This document shows positions 6,187 through 59,985 of a stretch of 64,000 nucleotides of DNA, in pieces. The notes under the pieces are model-generated. The model worked only from the letters and a program-made list of their open reading frames with translations. It did not search any database and was not told where the DNA came from. This stretch comes from Fibrobacter sp. UWB2 (GTDB lineage Bacteria > Fibrobacterota > Fibrobacteria > Fibrobacterales > Fibrobacteraceae), in assembly GCF_002210425.1 (NCBI RefSeq), contig NZ_MWQK01000002.1:62001-126000 (forward strand), in the 5' to 3' direction. The position numbers and the translations under genes were made by a program. Positions within the stretch are counted from its first letter, which is position 1. The number at the start of each line of letters is the position of its first letter.

Positions 6187-6194
6187 TTGGATTT

Positions 6195-6223
6195 TGTCAT
6201 ACCCGCCACCGAGCGGGTTTCTC
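6195..6223. repeat. Short palindromic intergenic repeat (ACCCGC/GCGGGT type)
   Basis: The sequence is TGTCATACCCGCC, ACCGA, then GCGGGTTTCTC. It is a variant of the element seen complete at 59576-59605 and split at 7856-7907. The inverted repeat is followed by a T-rich stretch, so it may also terminate the preceding gene. Confidence 0.6.
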
Positions 6224-7849: not shown

Positions 7850-7855
7850 GCAATT

Positions 7856-7907
7856 TGTCATGCCCGCCACTTTGTCATCCCGGACTCCGTTCCGGGAGGG
7901 CATCTCC
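7856..7907. repeat. Nested pair of short palindromic repeats
   Basis: The halves of the element seen whole at 59576-59605 (TGTCATGCCCGCCAC and GGCATCTCC) are separated here by a second palindrome at 7871-7898 (TTTGTCATCCCGGA, CTCCG, TTCCGGGAG). This looks like one repeat inserted into another. Confidence 0.6.
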
Positions 7908-32563: not shown

Positions 32564-32722
32564 GGCTATGTAGAACTTTAATGTTGAAACACCGCCTGAT
32601 GTTTAAAATTTTAAACAAAAAGGACTTTAAAAGGGCTTTTGGTGATTCGACAGGATTCAATGGCTCTTAAAAGCACGGTTCTTGTCAACATTCCATTAAC
32701 AACAAAAAAGTTCTACTTATCC
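32564..32722. mobile_element. 159-bp MITE-like element, copy 1
   Basis: It is identical to the second copy at 35625-35783 except for one base, and in the same orientation. The ends form a 16-bp imperfect terminal inverted repeat: GGCTATGTAGAACTTT at the left, and GGATAAGTAGAACTTT when the right end is read on the other strand. It is too short for a transposase, so it must be mobilised in trans. Its inner right flank is GAAATAAT (32723-32730), which also stands at the inner left flank of copy 2. Confidence 0.8.
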
Positions 32723-35624: not shown

Positions 35625-35783
35625 GGCTATGTAGAACTTTAATGTTGAAGCACCGCCTGATGTTTAAAATTTTAAACAAAAAGGACTTTAAAAGGGCTTT
35701 TGGTGATTCGACAGGATTCAATGGCTCTTAAAAGCACGGTTCTTGTCAACATTCCATTAACAACAAAAAAGTTCTACTTATCC
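35625..35783. mobile_element. 159-bp MITE-like element, copy 2
   Basis: This second, same-orientation copy differs from copy 1 (32564-32722) at one base (G for A near position 25 of the element). Its inner left flank is GAAATAAT (35617-35624), identical to the inner flank of copy 1; its outer right flank is ATTCTGAA. The first codons of the long frame entering the glycosyltransferase remnant come from this element and are not part of the enzyme. Confidence 0.8.
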
Positions 35784-51780: not shown

Positions 51781-52363
51781 TAATTCTCATAAGGAAATGC
51801 GTTTATTCAAGAAGCTCACGGCAATCCCGTATTTGCTTGTGTTGCTTGCTTTGCTGATGCCGCTTGCGAATGTCTCGTGCTCGGCCAAGGACGATAGCAA
51901 GCCGATTGCACAGATGACGATTTACGAGATTGCCTCGGGTGTCGACCTGGACAAGTCTCTCTCGGAAACTGCAAGTACCCAGATGCGTCGCATGCTCAAG
52001 GAAAATCCGAAAATTCAGGACCACTTCAAGACGCAGATGCCGAACTTCCCGAAAATGGAAGCTGTTCCTCACTTGTATGGGATTATTGCGGCGGTTGTTT
52101 TGGCGGCGGTGTTCTCGTGGATTGTGCCGCTAGCATCAACGGTAATGGGGCTCTTGTCCATGATTTCGCTATGGTCGCTGTTGATGAAACTTTCGCACAT
52201 CGGGGGGACTCTTGGAATCCCGTTATTGAAAGTTGAAGGTGGCATTGGGCTATACTGCGCTAGCTTCCTGATTTTAATCGGGACGGCAATGAATCTCGCG
52301 ACGCTTGTGCGCCCGATAGTGGTGGCCCGCCGCGAACGGAAGAAAGCTAAAGCGTCATCCTGA
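51773..52363 (+). CDS. Hypothetical membrane protein
   Basis: This 196-residue protein starts at ATG 51773, overlapping the FGE-fold gene end; ATG 51797 is an alternative. It has three to four TM helices: LLVLLALLMPLANVSC near residue 20, IIAAVVLAAVFSWIVPLAS, TVMGLLSMISLWSLL and YCASFLILIGTAMNLATL. An about 60-residue extracytoplasmic loop (SKPIAQMTIYEIASGVDLDKS) lies between the first two. No family is recognised. The last two serine codons and the stop belong to a dispersed repeat (52354-52379), so the C-terminus may have been re-made by repeat insertion. Confidence 0.7.
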   Translation: MSNNSHKEMRLFKKLTAIPYLLVLLALLMPLANVSCSAKDDSKPIAQMTIYEIASGVDLDKSLSETASTQMRRMLKENPKIQDHFKTQMPNFPKMEAVPHLYGIIAAVVLAAVFSWIVPLASTVMGLLSMISLWSLLMKLSHIGGTLGIPLLKVEGGIGLYCASFLILIGTAMNLATLVRPIVVARRERKKAKASS

Positions 52364-52379
52364 GTGAAACGAAGGATCT
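52354..52379. repeat. Short palindromic repeat (GTCATCCTGAG...GGATCT type)
   Basis: GTCATCCTGAGTGAAACGAAGGATCT is an imperfect palindrome related to 59434-59463. It supplies the stop codon of the preceding membrane-protein gene. Confidence 0.55.
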
Positions 52380-57886: not shown

Positions 57887-58906
57887 ATGAATATGGCTCA
57901 GAAAAAAAGTAACTGGAAAAGACGCGTTGTTGGCCTTTTGCTGATGTATGTTTTGATGTTCGTAGGGTACCAGTATTACGAAAAAAAAGTCGTAGAACGC
58001 GAACAATTCGAAATGATGATTCATGTAACGAACGAGTGCATCCGAGTTGGGGACTGGAAATGTGCCGAAAAAAATGTTCGGGAGCTTTTGAAGTCTGAAC
58101 CGGACGATACGAATTTGCAAATGCACATGGCTGGGATTCTCTTTGAACAGGAACGTTATCAGGAATGTATCAGCTATATTGAATCGCTAAATTTCAAACA
58201 CAAGGACTTAGATTACCTTGTTGAAAAGTCGAACGCCTTGGAACAGGAATTGAAAAATCTCGGCGTCGAAAAGTCTATGCATTTCCGCTTGGAATTTGAT
58301 GGCGGTCCTTCCAAGAAAGATGTGATGGAAGCTCTTGCCGTTTTGGAAGTCGCCTACGATTCAATTAGTAATTTGTTCGATTTTTTGCCCGAAAACAAGA
58401 TGAGCCTTGTGCTGTATGAGGATAAGGAATATCAGGGAACGGGACCGCGCCCGGATTGGGTTGGCGCCGTGTTTGACGGAAAATTGCGCGTGCCTGTGAA
58501 CATGATGGCATATCGTGAAGTTTATCGCCCGGTGCTGTTCCATGAACTGACACATGCATTTGTTCGTGCAATGACTCGTGCCAAAGTGCCGTGCTGGATG
58601 AACGAGGGAATTGCGCAGGTGATTGATGGCTCGCATAACAACGAAGAACACCCGGCGGGAGCAAAGCCAAGCATTGAATCGTTAAGAAAATCTTTTGTGA
58701 AAGAGACGGATGCGGCAACGGTGAAAAAACTTTATTGGTTCTCGAAGCGTATGGTCGAAGAACTTTTGTGGCGTGATGGCGGCGGCCCGGAAGCCTTCCG
58801 CAAATTTGCCAAGTGCTTGCAGGACCTTCGTGAACTTGGAATGGATGGCTCCCTGAAAAAGCATTATGGAATGACGGCTCAGGATTTGTTGGAGTCTGTA
58901 AAATGA
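57887..58906 (+). CDS. Membrane-anchored zinc peptidase-like protein (peptidase MA type)
   Basis: The 339-residue protein has one N-terminal TM helix (VVGLLLMYVLMFVGYQYY) and a TPR-like region (about residues 40-115). A metallopeptidase-like domain follows with HExxH in LFHELTHAFVRA (about residues 220-230) and the downstream WMNEGIAQ Glu, as in the gluzincin peptidase MA family. The zinc ligands appear intact. It lies in a plus-strand run, and its stop overlaps the asparaginase start (ATGA). ATG 57893 is an alternative start. Confidence 0.8.
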   Translation: MNMAQKKSNWKRRVVGLLLMYVLMFVGYQYYEKKVVEREQFEMMIHVTNECIRVGDWKCAEKNVRELLKSEPDDTNLQMHMAGILFEQERYQECISYIESLNFKHKDLDYLVEKSNALEQELKNLGVEKSMHFRLEFDGGPSKKDVMEALAVLEVAYDSISNLFDFLPENKMSLVLYEDKEYQGTGPRPDWVGAVFDGKLRVPVNMMAYREVYRPVLFHELTHAFVRAMTRAKVPCWMNEGIAQVIDGSHNNEEHPAGAKPSIESLRKSFVKETDAATVKKLYWFSKRMVEELLWRDGGGPEAFRKFAKCLQDLRELGMDGSLKKHYGMTAQDLLESVK

Positions 58907-59985
58907 AAAATATTGTGATTCTTGCGACGGGCGGTACTATTGCAGGCGCGGGCGAGCAAGGTAAGGATATAGGGTACAAGTCGGGCTCAATCAAGGCGCA
59001 AGCGCTGATTGATGCGATTCCGGAATTGAAGAATGTGGCGAATATTTGCGTGGAGCAAGTTTGCAATATCAATTCGGACGATGTTACTTCTGAAATTTGG
59101 ATTGCTTTGGCGAAGCGGATTCAGGAACTTTTGCAGCGCGAGGATGTGGACGGTATCGTGATTATGCACGGGACTGATACGATGGAAGAAACCGCTTTCT
59201 TCTTGAGTTTGACGCTGGGTGGTTCTGCTCCAAGTGCCGCCGGGAATGATGCGAAACCCGTGATTATGACAGGCTCGATGCGCCCTGCAACTGCTGCAGA
59301 ACCTGACGGCCCTGCAAACCTCCTCTTTGCCGTGAAAAGCGCTGTAGCTTTGTCATCACCGTCTTCATGTCACCCCGGATTTATTCCGGGGTCGCCATCT
59401 CGTTATGCGGACAATGCCGCAACCCAAGAATCTGTCATCCTGGAGCCGAAGGCGATAGGATCCAGTGCGGTATATGTCGCCTTTGCAGGCAAATTAATGA
59501 ACGCTCGCTCGGTGCAAAAGATTCACGCGAATGATTTGGATGCGTTTGCTGAATTGTCATGCCCGCCTCATGAATTGTCATGCCCGCCACCGAGCGGGCA
59601 TCTCCCTCTCGTAAATACATTCGACATCTCGAATATGCGCGAATTGCCCCGTGTCTCCGTTCTTTACTTTAACGCTGATGCCGATGCAGAATTGGTGCGC
59701 TTTGCGGCGGAGCGCTCGGCAGGGCTTGTCATTGCTGGTGCTGGCGCCGGAGAATTTTCTCGCGCATGGGCGGACGCATTGACGGATGTCGTTTCTAAAA
59801 ATAAAATCCCCGTCGTGATATCGACGCGAATCAATCGCGGTCGCATTGTCCCGGAACAGCTTCTTGTGCCAGGAACGATTGCCGCTTACGATTTGCCTCC
59901 AGCCAAAGCCGCCGTCCTCTTGCGCCTCGCTTTAACTACCACGAATGACCCTGCGGCCATTCAAAAGATTTTTCTAGAGAGCTAA
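58903..59985 (+). CDS. L-asparaginase carrying in-frame palindromic repeat insertions
   Basis: It hydrolyses asparagine to aspartate and ammonia. The 360-residue protein has both catalytic threonine motifs (ATGGTIAG and MHGTDTMEET), TGSMRP and the C-terminal VISTRINRGRI. Two stretches are foreign: about 39 residues after FAVKSAVA (containing SCHPGFIPGSPS and SVILEPKAIGSS) and about 20 residues after DAFA (ELSCPPHELSCPPPSGHLPL). Their DNA is made of the dispersed palindromic repeats seen between genes elsewhere in the window. The frame stays open, so the enzyme may be functional with longer surface loops. It overlaps the upstream peptidase gene by 4 bases. Confidence 0.9.
   Translation: MKNIVILATGGTIAGAGEQGKDIGYKSGSIKAQALIDAIPELKNVANICVEQVCNINSDDVTSEIWIALAKRIQELLQREDVDGIVIMHGTDTMEETAFFLSLTLGGSAPSAAGNDAKPVIMTGSMRPATAAEPDGPANLLFAVKSAVALSSPSSCHPGFIPGSPSRYADNAATQESVILEPKAIGSSAVYVAFAGKLMNARSVQKIHANDLDAFAELSCPPHELSCPPPSGHLPLVNTFDISNMRELPRVSVLYFNADADAELVRFAAERSAGLVIAGAGAGEFSRAWADALTDVVSKNKIPVVISTRINRGRIVPEQLLVPGTIAAYDLPPAKAAVLLRLALTTTNDPAAIQKIFLES
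59351..59400. repeat. Palindromic repeat inside asparaginase gene (CCCCGGA/TCCGGGG type)
   Basis: TGTCATCACC, then TCATGTCACCCCGGA, TTTAT, TCCGGGGTCGCCATCT. The stem CCCCGGA (59373-59379) pairs with TCCGGGG (59385-59391). It resembles the inner palindrome at 7871-7898. Confidence 0.65.
59434..59463. repeat. Palindromic repeat inside asparaginase gene (GTCATCCTGGAG...GGATCC type)
   Basis: GTCATCCTGGAGCCGAA is followed by GGCGATAGGATCC. It is related to the intergenic copy at 52354-52379. Confidence 0.55.
59555..59605. repeat. Partial plus complete copy of the TGTCATGCCCGCC repeat inside asparaginase gene
   Basis: A partial unit (59555-59568) is followed by a complete palindrome, TGTCATGCCCGCCAC, CGA, then GCGGGCATCTCC (59576-59605). 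It is the reference copy for the split one at 7856-7907 and the variant at 6195-6223. Confidence 0.65.

Follow-up and report, generated by a model that had tools for sequence, protein, structure and literature searches.

Dispersed palindromic DNA repeats lie in frame within two loops of an asparaginase from Fibrobacter

Introduction

Short palindromic repeats with an unpaired CGTC-type tag, termed CGTC-tagged REPs, occur in five phyla and include dRS3 of Neisseria and RPE-4 and RPE-6 of Rickettsia, according to the portions of the survey by Di Nocera, De Gregorio and Rocco (2013; PMC3733652) on which we draw here. As described there, an element consists of the tag (CGTC or TGTC/CCTC), a stem of 8-9 bp starting A, T, a loop of 4-5 bases with listed exceptions, and a short unpaired tail that is mostly CCA (PMC3733652). 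The same portions state that these REPs can occur inside ORFs, that they are without a dedicated transposase, and that the recB genes of Xanthomonas campestris and X. oryzae carry different REPs at about one site (PMC3733652).

Here we describe related repeats in a 64,000-nucleotide stretch of DNA from Fibrobacter sp. UWB2 (referred to below as the window). The source genome, of a rumen-type Fibrobacter, comprises 3.53 Mb in 15 contigs with a completeness of 99.99%, and metagenome-assembled genomes of F. succinogenes are among its closest named relatives. We find that two asparaginase loops of Fibrobacter hold dispersed palindromic DNA repeats in frame. As far as the cited portions of PMC3733652 describe the CGTC-tagged REPs and dRS3, the Fibrobacter units resemble them in having a TGTC tag, an 8-bp stem usually starting with AT and, in broad terms, a short loop and a short unpaired tail, and in being present as tens of dispersed copies that are mainly intergenic, with some in ORFs. 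The name Fibrobacter is absent from the main text of PMC3733652, palindromes are unmentioned in the covered passages of the F. succinogenes S85 genome paper (PMC3079729), and the literature matches listed contain no earlier report of palindromic repeats in Fibrobacter.

Results

The asparaginase gene (58903..59985; like all window features described here, on the forward strand) is type II-like and is interrupted by repeat-encoded peptides; it encodes a 360-aa protein in which the two Pfam domains, PF00710 and PF17763, are both present, and whose predicted fold matches solved type II asparaginases. Within the ORF we identified three full palindromic units (A1, A2, and B) belonging to three dispersed families, along with two partial units, arranged in two loops. 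Loop A (aa 149-189; 59347..59469), aligned with L037, L040, L006, and other homologues, contains units A1 and A2 around a native stretch: the piece YADNAA (aa 168-173) separates the two units and may be compared with SAVEMSAENAAGVY in the insert-poor homologue L037. A1, including a decayed left half, spans 59350..59391; the decayed half unit starts at 59350, and the TGTC-tagged hairpin TGTCACCCCGGATTTATTCCGGGG occupies 59368-59391. A2, a CTG-type unit (TGTCATCCTGGAGCCGAAGGCGATAGGATCCAGT), lies at 59433..59466. Loop B (aa 216-238; 59548..59616) is a repeat-encoded peptide N-terminal to the C-terminal domain, with a truncated B-family unit that consists of the left half only (59554..59567; an exact 14-base match) and a complete one (59575..59605). 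The initial annotation had proposed two inserted stretches made of a single repeat family. Both stretches exist, with limits corrected to 59347-59469 and 59548-59616, and both are extra sequence relative to homologues such as L037, but three families rather than one supplied their full units.

The initial annotation was borne out in proposing that the reading frame and catalytic motifs are preserved. The ORF is open, and the conserved alignment columns of Thr12, Thr91, Asp92, and Lys206 are undamaged. We take these residues to be catalytic by analogy with T12, T89, D90, and K162 of the E. coli type II enzyme, Lys206 presumably being the counterpart of Lys162. The invariant Lys206 sits between the loop A and loop B inserts.

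That the inserts are dispersed repeats is evident from the copy numbers of their families in the window genome: 95 for B, with up to 2 mismatches allowed, and 13 for A1 and 8 for A2, with up to 3, while controls read backward gave 0 in every case. B units have the structure (T)TGTC-ATNCCCGC-C(T/A)CCGA-GCGGGNAT-CTCC, and conservation drops steeply on either flank. The variable arm position of the B stem is paired in 92 of the 95 copies and by four pair types, so the palindrome has been kept through pairing changes. All three units carry the TGTC tag, which is nearly invariant across the 95 B copies. The B stem has 8 bp and starts with AT, the A1 stem has 8 bp and starts with AC, and A2 does not form one single stem of 8-9 bp. 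Hairpin loops measure 5 bases in A1, 6 in B, and 4 in a GAAG variant (L002 and L007), and the unpaired tail is CTCC in most B copies, CCA in A2, and variable in A1. Compared with the CGTC-tagged REPs as characterized in the cited portions of PMC3733652, the B family thus differs in its 6-base loop and CTCC-type tail, as opposed to 4-5 bases and CCA, and A2 in being a differently built hairpin.

In a 400-kb sample, palindromes whose arms match exactly over 7 bases or more were more numerous next to a GTC tag (42) than next to seven other triplets (5-16), an excess that faded when 8-bp arms with one mismatch were allowed (53 versus 33-55). Folded as RNA, A1 and B were more stable than shuffled sequences (z -2.67 and -2.74), whereas the A2 segment folded no better than its shuffles (z -0.87). 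The units contain no excess of open frames (4.79 versus 4.76 in shuffles); thus they show no sign of being built for coding, and selection for coding-compatible units can be dismissed. An Rfam search returned no match up to an E value of 0.1. Phage carriage was also considered and rejected, the exact pattern occurring in 0 viral contigs.

Three other places in the window had been singled out as bearing the same palindromes as the gene, and this is correct in part. The repeat at 6194..6223 is an intergenic B-family copy by sequence match, and that at 7855..7907 is, by sequence comparison, an intergenic composite that has the B-family left arm and in which a CCGGACTCCGTTCCGG unit is nested inside a B-family unit. 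The third, a CTG-type repeat (GTCATCCTGAGTGAAACGAAGGATC; 52354..52379), is related to A2 in kind and differs from it in sequence. Nested composites, with one unit inside another, are also intergenic at C2:69856 and C2:224286, and the composite of two REP families at 7855-7907 recurs at the latter position (G000:C2:224286). Five of the 13 CCGGACT matches in G000 finish at an identical GGGAGG junction, which suggests that the composite dispersed as one unit. The window also contains a direct repeat of 159 bases, 99% identical, at 32564-32722 and 35625-35783, 3061 bases apart.

We re-found all 116 listed copies and placed them against ORFs called with our own dicodon model. Most copies (93) are intergenic, two lie over an ORF end, and 21 fall inside ORFs. 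Nine of these 21 lie within the first 36 codons and were excluded because they probably reflect over-extended starts, leaving 12 internal copies in 10 genes, compared with approximately 104 expected from a coding fraction of 0.898. B-family repeats are found directly 5′ of the L130, L131, L133, L141, L151, L179, L063, L066, and L077 genes, where they supply TTG or in-frame codons and thereby lead ORF callers to stretch starts into the repeat. Asparaginase alone holds 3 of the 12 internal copies. Of 200,000 rounds of random placement with genes weighted by length, a fraction of 6.5e-05 put at least three copies into some gene, a value to be read loosely because asparaginase was singled out by the repeats themselves. 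Genes with an internal copy include, by Pfam, those for a Dus enzyme, a topoisomerase, a NUDIX protein, a methyltransferase, an ABC ATPase, a CobA-HemD fusion, a PP-loop protein, and an RsgA GTPase; one such gene, L159, matches no Pfam family. In the topoisomerase, and in CobA-HemD within its methylase part, the insert is inside the matched domain; elsewhere it is beside or between matched domains. Comparing the window genome with G004 over 64 orthologue pairs sampled from the syntenic region around asparaginase, we counted 19 internal indels of at least 5 residues. Only that of asparaginase is convincingly REP-derived; a second flagged indel, at residue 7 of g87, probably reflects an over-extended start and was discounted. 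A general invasion of genes is ruled out by the 12 internal copies among 116 and the single internal REP indel among 64 orthologue pairs.

Of 60 relative genomes, 38 contain asparaginase homologues, which were also detected at 26 named loci. In a tree built on the gapless core, several forks of which are weak, a 12-row clade that includes the window gene is supported at 99/99, and the window gene groups with L002 and L003 at 98/97 (window-L003 identity, 88%). After removal of seven duplicate rows, a recognizable tagged unit was present in 10 of the 12 clade genes and in 1 of the 37 other homologue rows, and the sole match outside the clade, which falls in the C-terminal region of an actinomycete protein without such a loop, is chance-like. 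An extra match at residue 333 of L039 belongs to the conserved core and was not scored as an insert. Other Fibrobacter asparaginases and distant ones have short loops without repeats. Shared loops in distant homologues, which the initial annotation had named as grounds for its refutation, were thus not seen. In the homologue from Candidatus Hennigella equi (L046:2001-2936) we noted three in-frame TGA codons, one of them at the conserved Trp of its relatives (IW), and this organism may read TGA as Trp.

Clade members carry mostly different mosaics of repeats in the same two loops, with insert peptides that vary between species in sequence, frame, and length. Loop A holds a B-family unit in L002, one that has a further repeat within its hairpin loop in L003, the loop A composite of the window gene plus one more unit in L032, and the CCGGACT family in L004 and L005; L037 is essentially without inserts, and L035 retains decayed traces only. 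Repeat-like peptide is also present at two more, variable places, namely a loop behind FLSLTL in L007 and the C-terminus of each of L004, L035, and L040; most relatives have none at either place. Since the repeats in these loops differ from one related species to another, they seem to have been swapped over time while the enzyme was apparently retained.

We next compared the inserts with the repeats resident in each genome. The 14-base B-family pattern occurs 95, 77, 67, 35, 14, and 4 times in G000, G004, G001, G018, G006, and G026, which have an insert-bearing asparaginase, and 0-10 times in the remaining 31 genus genomes, several of which are incomplete. A search for the CCGGACT pattern in 12 hand-chosen genomes of the 37 in the genus detected 9-64 copies in the same six insert-bearing genomes and 0 in six without inserts. 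Resident repeat load and asparaginase inserts therefore go together, imperfectly. G008 has a short asparaginase with no tagged units and no CCGGACT copies, and its CobA-HemD carries tagged units of another type, so repeat load and target are not simply matched.

Despite its inserts, the asparaginase appears to be maintained under purifying selection on its core, as judged from sequence comparison. None of the 12 clade genes has an internal stop, and core dN/dS (NG86) has a median of 0.108 and a maximum of 0.206 over 66 pairs. In an AlphaFold model based on 44 sequences (pLDDT 82.3, pTM 0.85), the only segments of at least three residues with pLDDT below 50 are 155-178 and 221-235, both within the inserts; according to this prediction, the inserted peptides are probably disordered. 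The protein itself is presumably made and active.

Repeats occupy loops of other genes as well. CobA-HemD and RsgA were chosen for comparison because the window genome has a unit in each. Across nine genomes, CobA-HemD carries a tagged unit in loop 1 in seven, loop 2 in six, loop 3 in one, and loop 4 in three; unit families differ among species, and G020 and G025 are without any. RsgA has a tagged unit at one loop in two of nine genomes, and the length of this loop is variable in the rest. Repeat insertion in genes is rare, yet recurrent at the same CobA-HemD loops across species. The four CobA-HemD loops (L197-L205) have species-specific repeat peptides; in L201 and L204 one of them belongs to the GTCATTGCGAGCCCCGAAGGGGCG..GGCAATC type, whereas a ACGAAAGA-rich stretch of a different kind lies in loop 3 of both L200 and L204.

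Discussion

We consider it highly probable that TGTC-tagged REPs came to lie in flexible asparaginase loops, where they have been tolerated and turned over between species. Resident short REPs, as single units or nested composites, would have entered the two loops, and only frame-keeping insertions in flexible loops would have survived; the survivors would consequently be translated as extra, probably disordered peptide, with the enzyme spared. Selection against all other insertions would be the simpler account of in-frame survival. An occupied loop would go on exchanging or gaining units, and sister species would for that reason carry different families there. The initial annotation spoke of one mobile family that adds peptide loops. 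The in-frame insert peptides are real and come from several families, and the turnover between species suggests that the units are mobile, whether through transposition or through recombination among copies. At loop B, the window gene, L002, and L003 have a common left flank (GCTGAATTGTCAT) followed by different hairpins, and this replacement of the core with flanks kept suggests exchange between copies, while nested composites suggest insertion into a pre-existing hairpin. We saw neither a target duplication nor a strain-level insertion event. The PF01797 transposase, the one family searched, is present in 9 of 37 genomes, including G001 and G004, and absent from the window genome, which speaks against mobilization by a RAYT.

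Length variation even in insert-free relatives, such as the 21-aa loop A of L006, would fit native, length-variable loops that resemble repeats through chance or composition bias. This reading is extremely improbable: it is refuted by near-identical DNA at 95, 13, and 8 sites across the genome against controls of 0, other dispersed families take the same positions in sister species, and the copies do not come from paralogous genes, 93 of 116 being intergenic. An assembly or binning artefact at repeats deserves equally little credence, even though many relatives are metagenome-assembled genomes; the window genome is nearly complete in few contigs, 10 of 12 independent clade assemblies have in-frame inserts, and ordinary reads exceed the 30-50 bases of a unit. 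It might also be argued that insertions pile up because the enzyme is no longer needed and its gene is decaying, given that the gene holds a quarter of the internal copies and that units are lost or decayed in L037 and L035. Frames open in 12 of 12 clade genes, undamaged conserved motifs, and core dN/dS of 0.09-0.21 in all window pairs led us to reject a pseudogene, and we regard decay as very unlikely. Selection for the peptides themselves, through an added function in stability, interaction, or localization, would explain why the same loops are filled in most of the clade, and we rate it as unlikely, only a little less so than decay, because the peptides differ across species in sequence, frame, and length, are predicted to be disordered, and are dispensed with in L037.

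The most serious competitor requires no new insertion: one old unit per loop would have been overwritten through gene conversion by copies elsewhere in the genome, which alone would account for the turnover. The shared left flank of loop B, with its differing hairpins, favors this explanation, as does the match between the loop A composites of the window gene and L032, which implies that this composite is old. By contrast, the unit nested in the loop of another unit in L003, and the repeat-like peptides in the FLSLTL loop of L007 and at the C-termini of L004, L035, and L040, places that are empty in most relatives, call for new insertion. We therefore give overwriting alone a substantial chance that falls somewhat short of even. 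Returning to insertion followed by turnover, we tentatively suggest, with slightly less assurance than we grant to overwriting, that a few Fibrobacter protein loops are recurrent landing pads. A resident hairpin would serve as the target of the next unit, by nesting or core replacement, and the loops would act as exchange cassettes feeding new peptide into conserved enzymes, with the moving machinery not yet known.

These findings extend protein-coding palindromic repeats to Fibrobacter and provide a comparative series, of 12 asparaginases and of CobA-HemD in nine genomes, in which the same loops hold different inserts. The series makes it testable whether repeat insertion in proteins reflects neutral tolerance or is adaptive, and what moves CGTC-type REPs, which the cited portions of PMC3733652 describe as being without a dedicated transposase. 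They also carry a warning for annotation, in that repeat-encoded peptides lengthen loops and displace predicted gene starts.

The likeness to Rickettsia palindromic elements, to which the initial annotation had pointed, is one of kind. As far as the cited portions of PMC3733652 go, the Fibrobacter repeats are of the TGTC/CGTC-tagged kind to which RPE-4 and RPE-6 belong, and like these they are palindromes in frame within genes for conserved proteins. What they have in common is that conserved genes are entered in frame where insertion is tolerated, here in the asparaginase loops and, more widely, at the 12 internal copies in 10 genes. Unlike the Rickettsia elements, the Fibrobacter repeats belong to another phylum and to a genome of 3.5 Mb rather than that of an intracellular bacterium, and the families that fill a given loop differ between sister species. 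In the window genome, the tested tyrosine transposase family (PF01797) is absent, which may be a further similarity to the CGTC-tagged REPs as these portions present them. Xanthomonas recB, as reported in the same portions, offers a precedent for turnover, with different repeats at one gene site between species, whereas in Fibrobacter we traced turnover over 12 asparaginase genes and four CobA-HemD loops in nine genomes. Fibrobacter is thus a new host for a kind of event already known; its series is well documented, and the same-loop turnover is unusual.
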